In this document: piece after piece, positions 19,938 to 30,521 of the stretch
How positions within the stretch are numbered: position 1 is the stretch's first letter
Layout of the letters: the number at the start of each line of letters is the position of its first letter
Assembly: GCF_040438885.1 (NCBI RefSeq)
Contig: NZ_CP159218.1
Coordinates: 2,480,001 to 2,544,000 of the forward strand
Length of the DNA stretch: 64,000 nt
Reading direction: 5' to 3'
Source of the DNA: Nakamurella sp. A5-74
GTDB lineage: Bacteria; Actinomycetota; Actinomycetes; Mycobacteriales; Nakamurellaceae
The notes under the pieces: generated by a model
The model's database searches: none
Seen by the model: the letters and a program-made list of their open reading frames with translations, nothing else
What the model was told of the DNA's origin: nothing
Made by a program: the position numbers and the translations under genes

Positions 19938-20659
19938 CCGACCGACTTGTGGTCGTCCACCCGGATGCCGCGACCTTGGCCGCGTCCGCTGCTGCTCGGA
20001 TGATCGCGCTGCTGCAGGACGTCCAGGCCTCGGTGAACGTGGCCACTGTCGCGCTGACCGGTGGCGGTTCCGGAATCGCAGTGCTCGAGCAGGTCGCCGC
20101 GTCCCCGCTGCGCGACCTGGTCGACTGGTCGCGGGTCGAGATCTTCTGGGGCGACGAACGTTTCGTCCCCGCCGATGACCCGGAGCGGAACGCCAAGCAG
20201 GCCTGGGAGGCGCTGCTGTCGAAGGTCGGCGTCGATCCGGCCCGGGTGCACGAGATGCCGGCGTCGGACGGCGAGTTCGGTGACGACGTCGATGCAGCGA
20301 CCCATGCCTATGCGGTGGAGCCGCCGGACCATCTCGACCTGGTGCTGATCGGCGTCGGCGGAGAGGGCCACGTGCTGTCGGTGTTCCCCGACTCCCCCGC
20401 GGTCGCAGTGACCGAGGACGGCCCGCGGGTGGTCGCGGTGCGGGACTGCCCCAAACCGCCGCCCACCCGCATCTCGTTGACGCTGCCGTACATCCAGCGC
20501 GCCACCCAGGTCTGGGCGTTGGTCTCGGGAGATGCCAAGGCCGAGGCCCTGGCCCGCGCCGCCGGCGGGGAACCGGCGTCCGCCGTTCCGGTGGCCGGCG
20601 CGGTCGGCCGCGAGCGAACCGTCTGGCTGCTGGACACGGCTGCGGCATCGCAGCTCTGA
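19934..20659 (+). CDS. pgl: 6-Phosphogluconolactonase
   Basis: Hydrolyses 6-phosphogluconolactone, the step after Zwf. The 241 residues contain the family motifs VALTGGGSGIAVLEQ, RVEIFWGDERFVPADDPERNAK and LDLVLIGVGGEGHVLSVFPDS; the usual GxGxDGH reads GVGGEGH, a Glu for the common Asp. The GTG start overlaps opcA (GTGA). Last gene of the tkt operon, ending 27 bp before a convergent pseudogene. Confidence 0.94.
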   Translation: MTDRLVVVHPDAATLAASAAARMIALLQDVQASVNVATVALTGGGSGIAVLEQVAASPLRDLVDWSRVEIFWGDERFVPADDPERNAKQAWEALLSKVGVDPARVHEMPASDGEFGDDVDAATHAYAVEPPDHLDLVLIGVGGEGHVLSVFPDSPAVAVTEDGPRVVAVRDCPKPPPTRISLTLPYIQRATQVWALVSGDAKAEALARAAGGEPASAVPVAGAVGRERTVWLLDTAAASQL

Positions 20660-20686
20660 GCCCGGGAAGCGGCGACAGCCTGCGGA

Positions 20687-21628
20687 TCAGCGTCCGGCAG
20701 CGCGGACGGCACTGACCACCGCTCGGGCCAGGGCGTCATGTCCGCGGTCGTTCGGGTGGTCGCCGTCGTCGGTCAACAGGTCGGTGGTGGTGCTGTCGTC
20801 CGAGCCGAAGGCGGCGTAGGCATCCACGTACACCGCACCCCCTGCGGCGCTCGCTCTCTCCAGCACCTGGTTGACCGCGTCGGTGAGCAACCGCGCGTTG
20901 CGCACGTAGACAACACCCTGGGCACGTCCGACCGCACCGGACCAGCCCACGTTCCAGTAGCCGATGACAGCGGTCACCGTCCCCTGGACCGGCCTCAGGT
21001 CGTGCAGCGTCGACAGGATGCCGTGCATGTTGCCGGCGAGAGTCGTCAGCTCGGTACGCCACTAGCTGAGGTCGGTGCACGCGGTGTCGCCCAGCTGCCG
21101 CACGTTCATGTCGTTCGCCCCGATCTCGAGCACGACAACGTCGCTGGTGGCGATGACCGAGCGCTCGTGCGGACTGCTCAGATCGTGCAGCAGGTCCGAC
21201 GAGGTGGCGCCCGGGACCGCCAGGTTGACTGCAGTCACGCGACGACCGGTCTGGGACAGCAGCTTCGCTGACCCACTCACGAACCCCGGGCAGTCACATG
21301 CGGATGCCGCGGGCACGGAGTCCCCCAGTCCGACCAGCTCATGGAACCCCCGCGCCGGTGCTGCTGAGGAGGGGGACGTCGTCGACCGGTCGGAGGGCGA
21401 CGGGGACACGGGAGCGGCCGACGGGGAGCGGGACGGGGAAGGGCTGGGTCGGGCCGGGGTCGCACGTTCCGTGGAGGGCGGTGACGGCTTCGTCACCGTT
21501 GCCGACACCGGACCCGGTGCGACGGCGGGGGCGGACGACGGATCGGCAGCGGACCGCACAGCGGAGCAGCCGACTGTCAGGAGCGCCCCTACTAGGACGG
21601 CCGCCAGCACGCCCCGGCCCCTAGGCAC
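20687..21628 (-). pseudogene. SGNH/GDSL-hydrolase lipoprotein interrupted by an amber codon
   Basis: A 314-codon frame is continuous except for one in-frame TAG at 21062-21064. Before the stop there is a signal peptide with lipobox (GVLAAVLVGALLTVGCS), a Ser/Pro/Thr-rich linker, SGNH block I (LVGLGDSVPAASAC) and block III (EIGANDMN). After it come WRTELTTLAGNMHGILSTL and block V (GDHPNDRGHDALA), with the catalytic Asp and His. Everything after the amber stays in the same frame, so a point mutation, readthrough or a base-call error would each explain it. GTG 21628 overlaps the esterase gene end by eight bases. Last gene of the lysX operon. The intact protein would be an envelope-anchored esterase or acyl hydrolase. 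Confidence 0.85.
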
Positions 21629-22736
21629 GGAAGCCCGGCAGGTCGCGGCCCAGCCATGCCAGTGATCGAGGGATGGCCGGCGTGATGACCTCACGTCGGT
21701 GCCCGCCCACCTGCAGGACGTCGGCGGTGACCGAGAGCGGAGGTCGGGCGCTGCTGAGCAACGCCGAGGTGGAGGGATAGGAGAGGGCATCCTGCTTGCT
21801 GGTGAGGATCCACAGCGCCACCGGTGGTGGCCGGTGCGCGGCCACCTGCACCAGGTCGTACTGACGCAGGTACGGGCTGCGCGCAGGAATCGGGTCGTAG
21901 TCCTTGGAGAAGTCCGGCCGGAAGTAGCCCAGCAGGATGATGGATGCCACGAAGGTGGACGAATGACGCATCCCGAGCACGGCGGAGCACCAGCCTCCGT
22001 AGGAGTATCCGAGGGTGGCCCAGGAACCGCGATCCGTGCGGGTGCGGAAGTGTTGGGCAGTCCACCTGGGCACGTCGACGCCGAGCCAGGTCTCCACCTG
22101 CGGTCCGCCGGGAATGTTGATGCACTCGTCGTCGACGGAGTTCGGGTTGTCGATCTGTGGGATCACCAGGATGGGCTGGGCGAGTTTGTGTTTGCTCACC
22201 GCCGTGTCGACGTAGTCGCCCACCCGCAGGTTGACGAGGGCAGTGGCCGGACTGGCCGGAAAGCCGTGCAGCACCTCGATGACCGGATACCGGGTGGCTG
22301 CAGCAGGGTCGTAGTGGGGCGGGACGTACACTAGGATCTGGCCGGTGAATCCGCTGGTCGCTCCGGTGATGATGAACGACTGGACACGGCTGGCCTGCAG
22401 CGGCGGCAACGAGATGGCTGCCTTCACACCGGTCAGTGCTCCTCCGGTGGTCGCCACCTCGGCCGCGGCCTGGGCATCGGCACCACCGTGCGCGGATTCG
22501 GCAACGGTCGGCGTGCCGAACAGGTCGTCCCAGCTGGCGTAGAACGCGTATTCGTCGTTGAGCAGGGCGAAGGCCAGCAACAGCACGACGGCGTTGAGCA
22601 GGATCGCGTTGATGCCGCGGAGCAGCATCGCGAGCCACGGTTTGCCCACCCGGGGGAATCCGAGGACGAGCGTCACCAGCAGCAGTGCCCCGAGCCCTCC
22701 CAACAGGATCGGGAATGTCGAACCGGTCAAGGACAT
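21621..22736 (-). CDS. Membrane-anchored alpha/beta-hydrolase, esterase-D/mycolyltransferase-like
   Basis: 371 residues. Two N-terminal hydrophobic helices (about residues 8-30 and 40-60) place a C-terminal esterase domain (about 115-371) outside the membrane. The nucleophile is in TLGYSYGGWCSAVLG (G-x-S-x-G-G), the likely acid in ILTSKQDALSYP and the histidine in LQVGGHRREV. The fold resembles esterase D and antigen-85-type proteins. It starts 16 bp after the response regulator gene, in the lysX operon. Since aminoacyl-lipid synthases can be encoded with hydrolases that remove the amino acid (Pseudomonas alanyl-PG hydrolase), a lysyl-lipid hydrolase role is an attractive inference; no direct evidence. 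Confidence 0.85.
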   Translation of the reverse strand: MSLTGSTFPILLGGLGALLLVTLVLGFPRVGKPWLAMLLRGINAILLNAVVLLLAFALLNDEYAFYASWDDLFGTPTVAESAHGGADAQAAAEVATTGGALTGVKAAISLPPLQASRVQSFIITGATSGFTGQILVYVPPHYDPAAATRYPVIEVLHGFPASPATALVNLRVGDYVDTAVSKHKLAQPILVIPQIDNPNSVDDECINIPGGPQVETWLGVDVPRWTAQHFRTRTDRGSWATLGYSYGGWCSAVLGMRHSSTFVASIILLGYFRPDFSKDYDPIPARSPYLRQYDLVQVAAHRPPPVALWILTSKQDALSYPSTSALLSSARPPLSVTADVLQVGGHRREVITPAIPRSLAWLGRDLPGFRA

Positions 22737-22752
22737 GGCCCAGCCTCCGTTG

Positions 22753-23430
22753 TCACGCGGGTGTCACGGACAGGCGGTAGCCCATCCCGCGAACTGTCTG
22801 GATCGTCGGCCGCCCAGCAACGACGCCGAGCTTGTGCCGCAGGTGGGCGATGTAGACCTCGACGATGTTGTCGCTGCCGTCGAACGCCGGATCCCAGACG
22901 TTGTCCAGGATCTCGGTCTTGGAGACGACGTTCTCACTGTGCCGCAAGAGATACTGCAGGACGGCGAACTCCCTGGAGGTCAACGACAACGGCACGTCCC
23001 CCGCCGTCACCGTATGGCGATTGGGGTCCAGCCGCAGATCTCCGAGCACCAGGGTGACCGGGCGTTCGGGCGCCGCCCGCCGGACCAGTGCGCGCAGCCG
23101 CGCGACGAGCACCGGGAAGCTGAACGGTTTCGTCAGGTAGTCGTCGGCTCCGAGCTCGAACGCATCCGTCTGGTCGTACTCGCCGTCTTTCGCCGTGAGC
23201 ATCAGAGTGGGCGTCCAGACGGCGAGCCCGCGCAGGGTCCGCAGCACTTCGTACCCGTTGCGGCCGGGCAGCATGATGTCGAGCACGATGACGTCGTAGG
23301 GGTTCTCGATGGCGAGCCGCTGACCGAACATCCCGTCGTGGGCGAGGTCGACGACGAAGCCGGCGTTGATCAGCCCCCTCCGGATGGACTCGGCCAGCAT
23401 CTTCTCGTCCTCGACTACCAGCGCGCGCAT
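22753..23430 (-). CDS. OmpR-family response regulator
   Basis: 225 residues: receiver domain (about 1-120) with acidic pocket EDE, phosphoacceptor Asp in VIVLDIMLPGRNG and Lys in YLTKPFSFP, then an OmpR-type winged helix (about 130-222, with LTSREFAVLQYLLRHSENVVSKTEIL and VYIAHLRHKLG). The ATG at 23430 has GAGGAGGGGG before it and shares one base with the lysX stop (TGATG). The histidine kinase that most likely phosphorylates it is divergent on the far side of lysX. Candidate binding sites are the 11-bp-spaced CCTGAAC repeats at 26866-26892. Confidence 0.95.
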   Translation of the reverse strand: MRALVVEDEKMLAESIRRGLINAGFVVDLAHDGMFGQRLAIENPYDVIVLDIMLPGRNGYEVLRTLRGLAVWTPTLMLTAKDGEYDQTDAFELGADDYLTKPFSFPVLVARLRALVRRAAPERPVTLVLGDLRLDPNRHTVTAGDVPLSLTSREFAVLQYLLRHSENVVSKTEILDNVWDPAFDGSDNIVEVYIAHLRHKLGVVAGRPTIQTVRGMGYRLSVTPA

Positions 23431-26400
23431 CAGTTCCCCCTCCTCTGCGCCGACCCGGCGTGAGTCGGTGTCGCTCTGACGAACGGGAAGCTCAGCACCG
23501 AGCGGATCGTCGTTCCGGTCAACGCCATCACGAGTCTGTCCACCCCGATCCCGAGGCCTCCGGACGGCGGCATCCCGAGCTCGAGGTCTGCGAGGAAGTC
23601 CTCGTCCACCTGCATCGCCTCCAGATCTCCGGCGGTCGCCTTCGCCGACTGTGCGACGAGCCGCCGCCGTTGCTCCAGCGGGTCGGTCAACTCCGTGTAC
23701 GCCGTTCCGAGCTCCATCCCGTTCATGACCAGATCCCACCGTTCGACCAGTCCCGGCTCGGAACGATGTGGTCGTGTCAACGGGGACGTCTCCGCGGGGA
23801 AGTCGACGTAGAAGGTCGGCGCGATTGTCGTCGGTTCGACGAGCTTGGCGTAGAGGGCTTCGATGACGGCACCCGGCCCGCTGCCCGTGCCCACCGGCAC
23901 AGCATGCCGGACCGCGATCGCCAGCAGCAGGTCGATGTCGGTGTCGATGTCGACCGGTTCCCCCACGGCCACGCTCACGGCGTCGAGCACCCGGACGACG
24001 GGCCAATGGTCCGGCAGCGAGACACCGATGGCCGCACCTGCCCGGCGGATCAGTTCCTCCGCAAGGACCTGCATCCCGCGATAGTCGGAGTACGGCAGGT
24101 ACGCCTCGAGAGAGGTGAACTCTGGGTTGTGGGTGAAGTCGGCGCCCTCGTTGCGGAAGTTCCTGCCGATCTCGAAGATCGGACCGGCGCCGGCGACCAG
24201 CAATCTCTTGAGGTAGAGCTCGGGCGCGATACGGAGCGACAGGTCGGCGGAGTAGGCGTTGATGTGGGTCCGGAACGGCCGCGCCGCAGCACCCCCGTGG
24301 ACGGTCTGCAGGATGGGTGTCTCGACCTCCCAGTACCCGGCCGCGATCAGGGTGCTGCGCAGCGACGCGACCACGGCGCTGCGGCGGCGCAGCAGTTCGA
24401 GCGACTCCGGGTGCACCAGCAGGTCCAGCGCTCGGCGGCGGGATCGCAGGCCGGGATCGACGAGACCACGGAAGGCCACCGGAGACAGGGCCTTGGCCTG
24501 GACCGACCAGTCCTGCAGGATCAGGGACGGTTGGCCCGAACGGGAACGCCCCCGCACCCCGCTCACCCGCAGGAGATCACCGACGTCCAGCAGCCGGGCG
24601 ATCTGCCGCACCGACTCCGATCCGACCACAGCAGCGTCGACGACGACCTGGACGGTGCTGGTCCCGTCGCCCAGGTCGAGGAAGCCGACATCGCCGTGCG
24701 CGCGGATCGCGCGTACCCGTCCGATGACGGTCTCGGCGTAGCTTTCGTCCTGCTCCTCCACACCCGGCCGCAGCGTCGCCGCCAACTGCGCCATGGTGCA
24801 CGTCTGCCTCACCGGACCGGCCGGATACCCTTGCACACCAAGGGCTTCCAGCTGGGACAGATGCAGCAGTCGCTGGCGGAACCGCTCGCCACGCCCACGT
24901 TCCGACGTGAGCGGTGCCGAGGACTGCAGCTGTTCGATCTCGCGGAGGTGCTGGGCGTCCAGATGTCCACCGGCAGCAGCGCGGCGCGCAGCGCCGATGG
25001 CCGGGACGAAACCTTCCGCCATGCCCGCGGCAAGCGCGACCTGGGACAGCGACACCCAGTCGGGGAAGCAGACGAACCTCGGCAACCACTGCGGGTGGTA
25101 CTTCTCATTCGACCGGTACAGACGCTCCAACTGCCAGAACTTGTCCAGGAAACCGAGGACGGAATGGTTCAGTCGGGTGAGCGGCCGGCTGCCGAGCTGG
25201 GCGTTGCGTTCGTACACCCCACGGAACATGCAGAAGTTGAGCGAGACCTGGCGGACACCGATCCGGTCCGCGTGGGTCAGGACGTGCGCGACCATGGCCT
25301 CGTTGATCCCGTTGGGGGCATGCGGATGTCGCCGCATCAGGTCCAACGAGATCCGCGCCTTCCCCCAGGGGACGAACGACAGCAGACCTCTGAGCCGGCC
25401 GCCGGCGTCGCGGGCTGTCACGAACAGCACGTCGGCATCTGCCGGGTCACCCTCCCGCCCCAGGGACATGGAGAATCCCCGCTCGGGCTCGTCGCCACGC
25501 CATTCGGCAGCCCGCGCAGCCAGTTCGGCCAGTTCCACTGCCGCCAACTGGCCCTGTCGGATCGCCCGGATGGTGAGCCCGGCCTTCCGTACCCGATTGA
25601 CGGCCTGACGCACGGGGGCGCTGTCGGTGCTGTCGAGGTCGAACTGCTCGGGATCCAGCAACGCCTCGTCGCCGAGGGCGATCACGTGCAGACCCAGTCG
25701 GGCGTAGGCCCTGGCACCCTCAGCACCGGCACCCAACACCGCCGGGATCCATCCGTAGGTGATCGCCTCCGCGCGCCAGGCGGCGACGGCCGCGTCCCAC
25801 GATTCCGGGTCGCCGATCGGATCGCCGGAAGCCAACGACACCCCCGCGATCACCCGGTAGGTGACCGCCGCGCGCGCGTTCGGCGAGCAGATCGACGCCT
25901 TGTCCCGTCGGGTGGCGAAGTAACCGAGCGAGTCACGGTCGCCCCAGGTCGACAGCAGACGACGGATCTGCACCTCCCGGTCGGCGGTCCATTGCTGGTC
26001 GTGCTGGGCCGACCGCAGGAACACGACGACTGCGACGACCGTGACCAGGCTGAGGAGCAGCGAGGTGGCCTGCTGGATCCATCCCGGCATGCCCGCCTGC
26101 TCCAGGCGAAGGGACGGCCCGTGGAATCCCAGCGCTCCCCACAACGTCGCACGGAGGTTCGCCCAGCGTGGGCCCGCCGTGGGGAGGTGCGCGAACACGA
26201 CGATGCTCGCCGTCGCGACGGTGGCGATGGACCCGATCAGCAGAACGAGCAGGCTGCCGCGCCAACTCCCCCTGCGCAGCTTCCCCGGAAAGGCGCTCCG
26301 GACGGACCACAGGACTGCAAGCACCACGACCCCGACCACGACGGACAGACCATCGACGATGCTGCCGAAGTCGGATCGGGCGTACAGGGTGTCGAGGGTC

Positions 26401-26813
26401 GGTGCGTTGATCAGCCGCAGACAGCCCACCGCGCCGAGGTAGGACCCCAGCACCTGGAACACCATCACCGCGACCAGACCGACCCGCTTGCGTCCCGACA
26501 GGGTCCACGTGCAGAGGGCGAGCACCACCACCGAGATGAGCGAGGGCGTCAGGGGGACGTTGAACAGTCCGAACCCGTCTTCCAACCAGGCTTCGCGGCG
26601 GCCGTGCAACAGACCGCGGATCCACAGGCAGGCTGCGACCACGACAGCGAGGGCGTAGCAGGCGGTCACGATGCGGGCAACCCGCTGGTGACGCCGGTCC
26701 ACGTCAGCGTCGGACCGCCGGTCGGCCCGACGCCCGTCGTCCGGTGGCGAGGCAGGTCGGGCCGGGACCGAACTCGACGGCGACGCTGTCGCTGTCGATC
26801 TCGGAGTTGTCAT
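23430..26813 (-). CDS. lysX: LysX, bifunctional lysyl-PG synthase / lysyl-tRNA synthetase
   Basis: 1127 residues joining two activities. The N-terminal part has about seven membrane helices (residues 45-290), then an MprF-like DUF2156 lysyltransferase domain (about 310-610, with LNFCMFRGVYERN). The C-terminal part is a class II lysyl-tRNA synthetase: OB-fold (about 690-790), motif 2 FEIGRNFRNEGADFTHNPEF and motif 3 GLGIGVDRLVMALTG. The tRNA-charging half supplies Lys-tRNA for adding lysine to phosphatidylglycerol, giving resistance to cationic peptides in mycobacteria. ATG 26813 has GGGAAG about 9 bp upstream. First gene of a lysX-regulator-esterase-lipoprotein operon. Confidence 0.95.
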   Translation of the reverse strand: MTTPRSTATASPSSSVPARPASPPDDGRRADRRSDADVDRRHQRVARIVTACYALAVVVAACLWIRGLLHGRREAWLEDGFGLFNVPLTPSLISVVVLALCTWTLSGRKRVGLVAVMVFQVLGSYLGAVGCLRLINAPTLDTLYARSDFGSIVDGLSVVVGVVVLAVLWSVRSAFPGKLRRGSWRGSLLVLLIGSIATVATASIVVFAHLPTAGPRWANLRATLWGALGFHGPSLRLEQAGMPGWIQQATSLLLSLVTVVAVVVFLRSAQHDQQWTADREVQIRRLLSTWGDRDSLGYFATRRDKASICSPNARAAVTYRVIAGVSLASGDPIGDPESWDAAVAAWRAEAITYGWIPAVLGAGAEGARAYARLGLHVIALGDEALLDPEQFDLDSTDSAPVRQAVNRVRKAGLTIRAIRQGQLAAVELAELAARAAEWRGDEPERGFSMSLGREGDPADADVLFVTARDAGGRLRGLLSFVPWGKARISLDLMRRHPHAPNGINEAMVAHVLTHADRIGVRQVSLNFCMFRGVYERNAQLGSRPLTRLNHSVLGFLDKFWQLERLYRSNEKYHPQWLPRFVCFPDWVSLSQVALAAGMAEGFVPAIGAARRAAAGGHLDAQHLREIEQLQSSAPLTSERGRGERFRQRLLHLSQLEALGVQGYPAGPVRQTCTMAQLAATLRPGVEEQDESYAETVIGRVRAIRAHGDVGFLDLGDGTSTVQVVVDAAVVGSESVRQIARLLDVGDLLRVSGVRGRSRSGQPSLILQDWSVQAKALSPVAFRGLVDPGLRSRRRALDLLVHPESLELLRRRSAVVASLRSTLIAAGYWEVETPILQTVHGGAAARPFRTHINAYSADLSLRIAPELYLKRLLVAGAGPIFEIGRNFRNEGADFTHNPEFTSLEAYLPYSDYRGMQVLAEELIRRAGAAIGVSLPDHWPVVRVLDAVSVAVGEPVDIDTDIDLLLAIAVRHAVPVGTGSGPGAVIEALYAKLVEPTTIAPTFYVDFPAETSPLTRPHRSEPGLVERWDLVMNGMELGTAYTELTDPLEQRRRLVAQSAKATAGDLEAMQVDEDFLADLELGMPPSGGLGIGVDRLVMALTGTTIRSVLSFPFVRATPTHAGSAQRRGN

Positions 26814-26865
26814 GGGGCGCTTCTTCCCGGAGTGGAGGGGTTCTGGACCATCGTGCATCCGAGAA

Positions 26866-26892
26866 CCTGAACGAATCCTGAACGGCCCTGAG
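26866..26892. promoter_or_regulatory. Tandem direct repeats, probable response-regulator sites
   Basis: CCTGAAC at 26866-26872 and 26877-26883 is separated by four bases (period 11 bp), and a partial third copy CCTGAG follows at 26887. Seven-base direct repeats with a four-base gap are the usual binding layout for OmpR-family regulators. The site lies in the 143-bp divergent region between lysX and the kinase gene, about 55 bp from the lysX start and 65 bp from the kinase start. Confidence 0.65.
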
Positions 26893-26940
26893 TGCAGCGA
26901 GCTGACCGGTGGTTCGGCATCCCGCAGGGCGGAAGCGGCC

Positions 26941-26956
26941 GGGCACACTGGTGCCC
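26941..26956. promoter_or_regulatory. Inverted repeat abutting the kinase start codon
   Basis: GGGCAC-ACTG-GTGCCC, perfect six-base arms, ends directly before the ATG at 26957. It could be an operator, or a hairpin hiding the start; there is no Shine-Dalgarno in front of this ATG. Confidence 0.55.
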
Positions 26957-28354
26957 ATGACGGGAAGGTGGGCGCGCTGGTCCCTGCGACGGAGGCTGTC
27001 GACCTCGTTCGCAGCCGCCTTGGTGACGGTGTTGTTGATCGGAGTGGCCGTGTTCATGGTGGCCCTCAGCTCGCTGCTCTCCGGCGGCGCTCGTACCTCG
27101 GCGCGCGCACAGGCGGAGCAGTTGGCCTCGATCGTCGCCACCGGGGGCCTGAGCCCACCCGCTGCGCTCGAGTCGGTACCTGCGGACGGAGCTCGGCTGC
27201 AGGTGATCGACGCTGCCACCGGGGCGGTCCTTGCCGGCTCCGACGTCATTGCACGCCATCAGGTCCTGTCGAACAGCCGCCCCCCTCCGGGCCACGAGGT
27301 GGTCGTCGCCCGAGGTGGAGTGCTGCTCGGCGACGACTCTTCGACGCTGGTCACCCGCAGCGCCCGCACCCCCGACGGCCGGCTGTACGTCGTGGTGGTC
27401 TCCCGACCGCACGCCGTCGAAGCACGCACCTTCACCTCGGCCACGGTGCTGCTGGTGATCGGCGCCGCGATCTGGGTACTCCTGGTGCTGGTGATGGTCG
27501 ACCGGATCGTGCGCCGCACCCTGCGGCCGGTGATGCAGATTCATCAGGACGTGTCCCGGATCAGCTCGGCGGGCAGCACGGAGCGGGTCACCGTGCCCCC
27601 GTCGGGTGACGAGATCGCCGCCCTGGCGCAGACGATGAATGACATGCTCGACCGGTTGACCCGTGCCGACACCGCCGGCCGACAGCTGATCTCGGATGCC
27701 TCCCACGAGCTCAGAAGCCCACTGGCCACGATCCGGGCGACGCTGGAAACGGCTCCGGCTGCGGAACAGGCAACACCGAGCTCGCGGGTCCTGTACCAGG
27801 AGGTGTTGCGCATGCAGCACCTGGTGGAGAACATGCTGACCCTCGCCAAGGCTGCCGACCCGGGTCTGCAACTCGTCGCAGAGGACGTCGATCTGGACGA
27901 CCTGGTCGATCTGGAGCTGCGTCGGCTGCGTCAGTCGACCCCGTTGGTGGTGAGCGGATCGGTCCGGGCGGCGCGCGTTCGCGGTGACCCTGCGCGCCTG
28001 GGTCAGGTGCTGCGGAACCTCACGGACAACGCCGCCCGCTACGCAGCCTCCCAGGTGTCCATCGACCTGCGCAGCGAAGACGGGCGGGCGGTGATCACGG
28101 TCGACGACGACGGACCGGGCATCCCCGTCCAGGATCGCGAAGCGGTCTTCGAGCGATTCAGCAGGCTGCAACCCTCGCGGGACCGGGACGCCGGCGGGAG
28201 CGGTCTCGGTCTTGCCATCGCCCGGACCCTCGTGGGCAAGCACGGGGGGACGGTGATTGTCGGCGAGAGTCCCCGTGGCGGTGCGCGTTTCGTCATGTCC
28301 CTCGCCCTCGCACCCCCGGACGACTCGCCGGCGCAGGGCCCGGGGTCGGACTGA
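26957..28354 (+). CDS. Sensor histidine kinase (HAMP, HisKA, HATPase)
   Basis: 465 residues. A transmembrane helix (about 14-37), a short extracytoplasmic sensor of about 120 residues, a second helix (about 160-185), HAMP (about 185-235), HisKA with phospho-His in SDASHELRSPLATIRATLE, and HATPase with N box LRNLTDNAARYA, G1 VDDDGPGIP and G2 GGSGLGLAIA. It probably pairs with the response regulator at 22753 although lysX lies between them and transcription is divergent. ATG 26957 is chosen because the first helix starts soon after; an inverted repeat abuts it. The small sensor domain may detect envelope or lipid signals (inference). Confidence 0.94.
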   Translation: MTGRWARWSLRRRLSTSFAAALVTVLLIGVAVFMVALSSLLSGGARTSARAQAEQLASIVATGGLSPPAALESVPADGARLQVIDAATGAVLAGSDVIARHQVLSNSRPPPGHEVVVARGGVLLGDDSSTLVTRSARTPDGRLYVVVVSRPHAVEARTFTSATVLLVIGAAIWVLLVLVMVDRIVRRTLRPVMQIHQDVSRISSAGSTERVTVPPSGDEIAALAQTMNDMLDRLTRADTAGRQLISDASHELRSPLATIRATLETAPAAEQATPSSRVLYQEVLRMQHLVENMLTLAKAADPGLQLVAEDVDLDDLVDLELRRLRQSTPLVVSGSVRAARVRGDPARLGQVLRNLTDNAARYAASQVSIDLRSEDGRAVITVDDDGPGIPVQDREAVFERFSRLQPSRDRDAGGSGLGLAIARTLVGKHGGTVIVGESPRGGARFVMSLALAPPDDSPAQGPGSD

Positions 28355-28433
28355 CTGCCCTCCGGGCCTGGCCCCGGAGTGGGTACCGTCGCTCTGGTCC
28401 CCGGCCCGCGGCGGAGGCTGGCAGGATCGCGGG

Positions 28434-29339
28434 ATGCTTCCCGGACTGGTCGGCGCGGTGCTCGCGGCACTCTGCTACGGCGCCGCCTCCGTGAGCCAGG
28501 CGCTGGGTGTCCACCGCTTCGCCGAAGCGTCGGCTGATCTCCCGCTGACGGCGAGGCTGCGCCGGGCCGGGCCGTACCTGCTGGGGACGGTGTTGGATCT
28601 CTGCGGGTTCTTGGCCTCCTTGGTGGCGCTACGGACCCTGCCGCTGTTCCTCGTGCAATCGGTGATCGCCACCAGCGTCGCGGTGACCGCCGTACTGGCG
28701 CGCAAGATCTTCGGCACTGTTCTGCGGAGGTCGGAGGTGCTCGCCCTGCTCCTGGTGGTGGTCGGCCTCGGCTGCCTGGCCGTGTCCGGCGTGAGCAGCC
28801 CCGCACACCCCATCCCAGCGGTCGGGTCGCTTGTCCTGGTGCTGTTCGTCGTGCCCCTCGCCGGGCTTGCCGTGGTCGCCGGCCACCGGACTCCCGTCGC
28901 CCCGTCGACAGGCAGCGCTGCCGGCGGCGGACCGCGACGCGGCTGGTTGCTGCTGGCCGTGGTCGCAGGTCTCGCCTACGGCGCAGTGGGCATCGCGGCC
29001 CGTGTCCTGGTGACACCACACCCGTGGTGGCACCTGCTCGGCGATCCGGTGGCGTGGGTGCTGGCCGGCTACGCCACCCTCGGGACGATCTGCTACGCGC
29101 TCGCCCTGGCACGCGGACGGGTGACGGTGGTTGCTTCGGTGAGCGTGGTCATCGAGACGGTCGTGCCGACGATGGTCGGCCTGCTCTGGCTCGGGGATGC
29201 GGTCCGCCGGGGATTCGGCATCTGCGCTGCGATCGGGTTCGTCGTCACGACGGGAGGGTGTCTCGCGCTGTGCCGGAACAAGGAGTTGGTGGACCTCGAG
29301 CGTGCGGTGCGCTCCGGCCACTCCACACCGTCACGGTGA
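28434..29339 (+). CDS. EamA/DMT-family membrane protein
   Basis: 301 residues, nine or ten hydrophobic helices in two repeats, matching drug/metabolite transporter (EamA-like) proteins of the actinobacterial DMT type. It begins LPGLVGAVLAALCYGAASVSQALG, and the second repeat runs WLLLAVVAGLAYGAVGIAARV to ASVSVVIETVVPTMVGLLWLGD. ATG 28434 has AGGA seven bases upstream. It follows the kinase gene by 79 bp on the same strand, so it may belong to the same transcript. The substrate is not predictable. Confidence 0.8.
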   Translation: MLPGLVGAVLAALCYGAASVSQALGVHRFAEASADLPLTARLRRAGPYLLGTVLDLCGFLASLVALRTLPLFLVQSVIATSVAVTAVLARKIFGTVLRRSEVLALLLVVVGLGCLAVSGVSSPAHPIPAVGSLVLVLFVVPLAGLAVVAGHRTPVAPSTGSAAGGGPRRGWLLLAVVAGLAYGAVGIAARVLVTPHPWWHLLGDPVAWVLAGYATLGTICYALALARGRVTVVASVSVVIETVVPTMVGLLWLGDAVRRGFGICAAIGFVVTTGGCLALCRNKELVDLERAVRSGHSTPSR

Positions 29340-29367
29340 CCGGGACACCACCGCCCGGATTCGTGCA

Positions 29368-29397
29368 CTGCGTGGCCACCTGATTAGGTGGATGCAG
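29368..29397 (+). terminator. Hairpin between the EamA gene and mdh
   Basis: CCACCT-GATT-AGGTGG (29376-29391) is a perfect six-base stem with a four-base loop, flanked by an outer CTGC/GCAG pair (29368-29371, 29394-29397). There is no U-run. It may end the upstream transcript or form part of the mdh leader. The core CCTGATTAGGTGG recurs at 37724-37736. Confidence 0.45.
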
Positions 29398-29484
29398 CGC
29401 CCCACACCGAAGTCCGGTGAGTTGTCGCCAGGCCGCCGGGAGACCCCCAGGACCTGCGTTCATCGAGGAGGATGACAACAGATC

Positions 29485-30471
<987 letters not shown>

Positions 30472-30485
30472 CGGCGGGGCTCCAC

Positions 30486-30521
30486 GCAGCAGCCCCCGAT
30501 CGGCGGATCGGGGGCCGCTGC
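30486..30521 (+). terminator. Strong hairpin terminator after mdh
   Basis: GCCCCCGATC-GGCG-GATCGGGGGC is a perfect ten-base stem (30492-30501 with 30506-30515), extended by five more pairs after one mismatch to 30486-30521. It starts 15 bp after the mdh stop. It has no U-run, as is common for hairpins in high-GC actinobacteria. Confidence 0.8.

Follow-up and report, generated by a model that had tools for sequence, protein, structure and literature searches.

In staphylococci, lysyl-phosphatidylglycerol (lysyl-PG) synthesis is under the control of an OmpR-family two-component system, GraRS/ApsRS, which acts on the synthase gene mprF. A BceAB-type transporter takes part in GraRS/ApsRS, and the binding site of that system differs from the one presented here. 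LysX of Mycobacterium tuberculosis is described as lysinylating phosphatidylglycerol and protecting the bacterium against cationic peptides (PMC2713425). A study of lantibiotic resistance in Corynebacterium covers both LysX homologues and two-component systems, and its accessible text makes no one-operon link between them (PMC8003753). In Agrobacterium, the available account of lpiA-acvB places the genes of a lysyl-PG synthase and an alpha/beta hydrolase in one operon, as is the case here (PMC13197417). The literature that we searched says little about what turns on lysyl-PG synthesis by LysX in actinobacteria. Our search of open-access papers returned no description of the box reported below or of a lysX-regulator-esterase/kinase module.

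We analyzed a 64-kb stretch of DNA (the window), in which lysX shares an operon with genes for a response regulator (RR) and an esterase, and is divergent from a sensor histidine kinase gene (Table 1). Unlike the GraRS/ApsRS arrangement, LysX of the window carries its own lysyl-tRNA synthetase (LysRS) and sits in the operon of the RR, and there was no BceAB-type transporter among the genes described at 20.7-29.5 kb. LysX is bifunctional, with the lysyl-PG synthase domain fused to LysRS, and matched NCBIfam NF002821 with 1238 bits (cut-off 742). An OmpR-family regulator had been placed in this operon by the preliminary description, and we found it there, with its receiver and DNA-binding families (PF00072 and PF00486) and its start codon overlapping the lysX stop by one base (TGATG). 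The esterase gene follows after 16 bases. In other loci, homologues of the esterase adjoin MprF/LysX together with this two-component system. The lpiA-acvB operon offers an analogy (PMC13197417), on which the esterase is a candidate aminoacyl-PG hydrolase that could remove lysine again.

Table 1. Features of the lysX locus, in window coordinates.
Feature	Position	Strand	Remarks
Membrane-anchored esterase, third operon gene	21621..22736	-	PF00756; candidate aminoacyl-PG hydrolase
OmpR-family response regulator (RR)	22753..23430	-	PF00072 + PF00486
lysX, lysyl-PG synthase fused to lysyl-tRNA synthetase	23430..26813	-	NF002821, PF09924, PF00152
Predicted -10 hexamer CACGAT	26850..26855	-	A at +27, T at +31 from first TCAG
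Promoter-proximal half-site	26866..26872	-	GTTCAGG in lysX sense (CCTGAAC on +)
Second half-site	26877..26883	-	GTTCAGG, 11-base period
Third, imperfect half-site	26887..26893	-	ACTCAGG, spaced by 10 bases; may bind a second dimer or be auxiliary
Sensor histidine kinase, divergent	26957..28354	+	HAMP, HisKA, HATPase; small strand-rich extracytoplasmic domain
Putative DMT-type transporter, downstream of kinase	28434..29339	+	Homologues adjoin two-component system in L250, L251, L292

The AlphaFold model of the kinase (mean pLDDT 80.4, pTM 0.47) contains the small strand-rich extracytoplasmic domain and gave no clue to the signal. The product of the gene downstream of the kinase matched no Pfam or NCBIfam family; presumably it is of the DMT type. 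A large plus-strand frame at 23460-26870 was rejected as a gene, being the antisense shadow of lysX, and an Rfam search of 20000-30500 returned no RNA family. As for other lysyl-tRNA synthetases, the genome (G000) encodes one of class I (PF01921) at G000:C1:1349188-1350408, and LysX (23433-26813 of the window) is its only strong class II match. In four congeners, LysX is accompanied by a separate, stand-alone class II LysRS.

Between the lysX and kinase start codons lies a gap of 143 bases (26814-26956). It contains two plus-strand copies of CCTGAAC separated by 4 bases, and the repeat reported in the preliminary description is therefore real. Its extent was slightly different from that given: the exact repeat has 8 bases rather than 7 (CCTGAACG, 11-base period), and the third, partial copy, CCTGAGT, 10 bases from the second, was confirmed and ends at 26893 rather than 26892. 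In the lysX sense the site reads GTTCAGG-ATTC-GTTCAGG, followed by CACGAT at +26 to +31 from the first TCAG. This is the layout of an OmpR/PhoB-family operator, with two half-sites of about 6-7 bases placed head to tail about 11 bases apart, at a predicted -35 position with a correctly placed predicted -10. The same succession of 11-base and 10-base spacing was seen upstream of the RR in locus L023.

When the gap was shuffled 5000 times with its dinucleotides preserved, 35 shuffles contained an exact 7-mer repeat at lag 11 and 121 contained one at lags 10-12. There were 5 lag-11 exact 7-mer matches in the whole window, 2 of which belong to this site. Taken alone, and considering that it was spotted by eye in 64 kb, the repeat is only mildly unusual, which is suggestive and not decisive.

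The exact pattern CCTGAACN4CCTGAAC occurred twice in the whole genome (reversed control 0), and with up to 2 mismatches there were 41 sites, compared with 8 in the control. A genome scan for the repeat had been proposed as a way to find the regulon. We ran it, and the exact CCTGAAC search was rejected as a regulon finder because it was too narrow, with only those two sites, whereas a search for the TCAG box together with the -10 (YTCAGSN5YTCAGSN11ANNNT) gave 3 sites and none in the control. The second exact site, G000:C1:2187844-2187872 (L001), has 3-4 copies of TCAGGG with an 11-base period and lies at the 3' end of a sigma-factor-like gene, approximately 0.2 kb upstream of a drug-efflux MFS gene. 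We rejected this site as a regulon member, because it has no -10 in register (-10 part of the matrix score, -2.0) and is oriented away from the MFS gene.

Homologues of the RR (E 1e-60 or better) were present in 150 of 298 genomes of the order. For the first set 100 regions were fetched, 99 with an RR, and the 250 bases upstream of the RR were taken from 80 non-redundant ones; TCAG pairs were counted on either strand at lags 7-25. We observed TCAG-N7-TCAG (lag 11) in 28 of the 80 regions, compared with 0-7 at any of the 18 other lags and 1/80 in the coding control. The second set came from a scan of genome contigs, which gave 80 loci, reduced to 66 by removing 5 that shared upstream sequence with the first set, as well as redundancy. 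Its nearest RRs, from Knoellia, Pedococcus, Janibacter and relatives, are 69-74% identical to that of the window. In this non-overlapping set lag 11 was found in 24/66 regions and other lags in 0-4. The two sets agree, and therefore the lag-11 signal is reproduced; as in an operator, the box is conserved upstream of orthologous regulators. The exact TCAG pair was absent from 52/80 and 42/66 RR-upstream regions, and some of those RRs lie inside operons.

The -10 kept its register as well. In the first set A stood at +27 in 22/29 sites and T at +31 in 18/29, while both were present in 30/32 sites of the non-overlapping set, in the same register as in the window. The bases A and T each make up approximately 16% of the second set (computed before the 5 shared loci were removed). 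A weight matrix was trained on the first set only, without the window site. Across all positions and both strands of the 64 kb, it scored the window site at 21.6 and the next best at 10.2. Shuffling leaves some room for a chance direct repeat without function, as the count at lags 10-12 illustrates; we hold this to be very improbable, since a matrix derived from other genomes ranks the site first in the window by 11 bits, -10 register included. Because of this comparative evidence across genomes the repeat, which alone would be only suggestive, becomes a convincing predicted operator. The OmpR-family dimer layout claimed for it was borne out at the level of a predicted site, with TCAG-N7-TCAG and a fixed -10 upstream of RR homologues.

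The residues N188, V190, E191, V192 and Y193 of the recognition helix were invariant or nearly so in 182 RRs; the window RR departs from the others at two usually conserved positions (A195 and H196 instead of G and Y). A box that is real could be bound mainly by another OmpR-family regulator, namely a second RR of the same clade (G000:C1:4332632), an RR of a sister clade, or a PhoP-like protein with TCAG/TCACAGC half-sites. The second RR is 59% identical to the window RR, shares the N-V-V-E-V-Y recognition core and has the PAP2 box at its locus. TCAG-N7-TCAG also stands upstream of 3/20 other OmpR-type RRs in the genus, and M. tuberculosis PhoP likewise binds direct repeats, two with a third at a variable distance (PMC3413638). 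We nevertheless find this reading doubtful. The box fronts the operon that encodes the neighbouring RR, the -10 of the sister clade is one base nearer (+25 to +30, read from the sequences by eye; +26 to +31 in the window), and the 9 genus genomes with other RRs and no close homologue of this one had almost no boxes (1 site). The sister clade itself (L032, L036, L048; recognition helix NLVEA/V..S) has the same TCAG-N7-TCAG boxes with this closer -10. Such a one-base shift is a possible form of insulation between the clades, and with the half-site being the same it offers a testable idea on how related regulators avoid crosstalk.

The preliminary description had also made its case depend on conservation of the repeat upstream of lysX homologues with the same neighbours. 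We found 5 full-length LysX genes in 17 genus genomes, and only the one in the window has the box in front, so the box does not behave as a lysX-specific control element and instead tracks the RR homologues. In G012 the box is located between the lysX and RR genes. No RR adjoins the LysX genes of G005, G011 and G014, which lack the box as well; since this concerns three of the five, we assign the box to the RR and not to lysX. Autoregulation of lysX-RR-esterase is the natural reading, because the box faces this operon and its genes overlap or are 16 bases apart. Of the single self-regulated unit proposed earlier, the lysX-RR-esterase part is thus well supported, as the box points that way, whereas the kinase is only a putative member, as no kinase-facing box was found.

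A FastTree phylogeny of 182 RRs grouped the window RR with those of Knoellia, Pedococcus, Janibacter and Phycicoccus (support 0.80), within a wider clade of 20 members (support 0.98). The second RR of this genome grouped with the RRs of G003 and G012 (support 0.94). Since the window RR falls among those of Intrasporangiaceae rather than among the RRs of its own genus, acquisition of the lysX-linked system is suggested, though not proved.

The three sites with the full pattern in this genome are that of the window, one located 41 bases before a DUF347 membrane protein gene and one 7-8 bases before a PAP2 phosphatase gene. The PAP2 box adjoins the second RR/HK (histidine kinase) pair of the genome, and a further site, with one mismatch (4333410), is found close to that RR. 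In the genus, box and -10 occurred together 14 times (control 0), and the 8 genomes that have a close RR account for 13 of these. G008, G011, G013 and G016, which have the RR, had no full pattern, and G001 had one without the RR. The gene theme recurs in the genus, with PAP2 and DUF347 in G003 and G012, BacA in G009 and a DedA-like gene in G003. The labels of PAP2 in G003 and of DUF347 in G003 and G012 were given by similarity to scanned proteins (7/10 proteins were scanned); conserved genes were labelled by tblastn at E 1e-4, 1e-5 or 1e-8, or by Pfam.

Across the RR loci (2.34 Mb) we observed 224 distinct sites scoring at least 18, and none in the reversed control. These comprised 51 sites before RR genes, a count that is partly circular as the matrix was built from the RR-upstream sites of L081-L180, and 7 before HK genes. 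The numbers before PAP2 (15), DUF347 (11), esterase (3) and BacA (1) genes are not circular. Another 76 sites stood divergently to a gene of these types or of the DMT type, and the remaining 60 had other positions. Within 179 RR loci (flanks of approximately 7 kb on each side) there were 22 with a LysX/MprF-type domain, 27 with PAP2, 22 with DUF347 and 16 with an esterase homologue. L100, L105, L110 and L112 have two boxes in the stretch that separates esterase-lysX from a divergent gene, which precedes kinase-RR and was identified as MurT in L100. In L248 overlapping PAP2 and MprF-like genes are divergent from the RR, with the box between them and the esterase beyond the kinase.

At the level of the order, sites were present in 101/150 genomes with the RR and 59/148 without it. 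The totals were 238 and 83, respectively (control 12 per group); without the boxes of genus g39 the first becomes 184. As 83 sites compare with 12 in the control, other regulators use similar boxes. Other RRs account for part of these sites, given the 3/20 OmpR-type RRs of the genus with TCAG pairs upstream; there, as read by eye, the -10 is one base nearer. Genus g39 (G109, G251, G290; L311-L329) has 54 TCAG boxes with a -10, often in series approximately 82-112 bases apart and with incoherent downstream frames; judging from the sequences, they resemble a dispersed repeat based on this promoter grammar. A conserved box, CTCAG...CTCAG...CCGTACCGT, is found in genus g15 (L334, L335 and similar f15/g15 sites) before a large alpha/beta-hydrolase-like frame, in genomes with and without the RR. 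In family f12 (L331-L333) the box precedes a membrane metallophosphoesterase gene in 3 genomes (PF00149 in L331).

On this comparative evidence, we consider it probable that the repeat is the operator and promoter core of the lysX-RR-esterase operon, from which the RR would activate at the -35 position, with feedback. In the following scheme we infer that the window RR binds the box and activates from it, what the signal is, and that the kinase is co-regulated. Two RR monomers would bind head to tail on the TCAG half-sites, which are one helical turn (11 bases) apart at the -35 position, and the third copy would serve as an auxiliary site. The phosphorylated RR would most likely activate by contacting RNA polymerase (class II, as PhoB or OmpR), because the distance from the proximal TCAG to the -10 hexamer is 11 bases and no sigma-70-like promoter or -35 element was found in 21300-29500. 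The same overlap of half-sites and -35 position could let the RR block polymerase, making the box a repressor site that shuts lysX off. We consider this unlikely, given that there is no -35 element of that kind to occlude and that the distance from TCAG to the -10, fixed in 30/32 sites, suits polymerase contact better than occlusion. Under activation, the output would be more LysX, more of the RR itself (positive feedback) and more esterase.

The signal, sensed by the divergently encoded kinase, would probably be envelope damage, caused by cationic peptides, lipid II-targeting compounds or metal ions. A more tentative alternative, to which we give well under half of our confidence, is that the system answers toxic divalent metal ions, with LysX and PAP2/DUF347 as metal-tolerance outputs instead of antimicrobial-peptide defence. 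The best NCBIfam score of the RR was for the heavy-metal subfamily TIGR01387, at 206.8 bits and thus below the cut-off of 279.2. In Frankia, UppP and DUF347 operons are lead-induced (PMC4531530), and here DUF347 and PAP2 genes carry the box. However, LysX/MprF, MurT and DedA are outputs that agree no less well with stress from cationic peptides or to the envelope.

We are evenly divided on a broader proposal, that the box marks a two-component regulon that is widespread in actinobacteria, is undescribed so far and follows a strict grammar (YTCAG-N6-YTCAG and -10 A/T at +27/+31). It would link the synthesis and perhaps the turnover of aminoacyl-PG (LysX/MprF, esterase) to the recycling of undecaprenyl phosphate (PAP2, BacA, DedA) and to the amidation of lipid II (MurT). 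In this genome a second copy, whose RR groups with Intrasporangiaceae, would have entered the lysX operon and provided LysX with a feedback switch of its own. PAP2, BacA and DedA are proteins that point to undecaprenyl-phosphate recycling. The box is a sequence-level handle, which predicts promoters answering to this two-component family and the gene types that travel with LysX/MprF, namely PAP2, BacA, DedA, DUF347, esterase and MurT. The site recurs before cell-envelope genes in many actinobacteria, and it makes the regulon and signal of a putative envelope-stress circuit without prior description testable.

Several described systems resemble the locus in part. In the available part of the account, the PhoP operators of M. 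tuberculosis share an OmpR-family RR, tandem direct repeats, often with a third, and autoregulation; they differ in their 9-base repeats, in their targets and in showing no fixed TCAG-N7-TCAG/-10 grammar there (PMC3413638). The window RR matched the PhoP chain with only 152 bits. Pseudomonas ColRS, as far as its accessible description goes, also has an RR with an imperfect direct repeat and a regulon rich in envelope and membrane genes, but its consensus, (T/C)(T/C)NA(C/G)NN(T/C)TTTTT(C/G)AC, is unrelated to TCAG (PMC2689224). The lead-induced Frankia operons have the same target types, undecaprenyl-PP phosphatase and DUF347, although the part of the account available names no regulator or box and does not mention lysX (PMC4531530). 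In lpiA-acvB, acvB encodes a soluble periplasmic hydrolase and the available text describes the operon without a two-component system, whereas the esterase of the window, a candidate hydrolase, belongs to PF00756 (PMC13197417). In summary, sequence comparison indicates that the repeat is a real operator-promoter, ordinary in kind, which opens a testable regulon.
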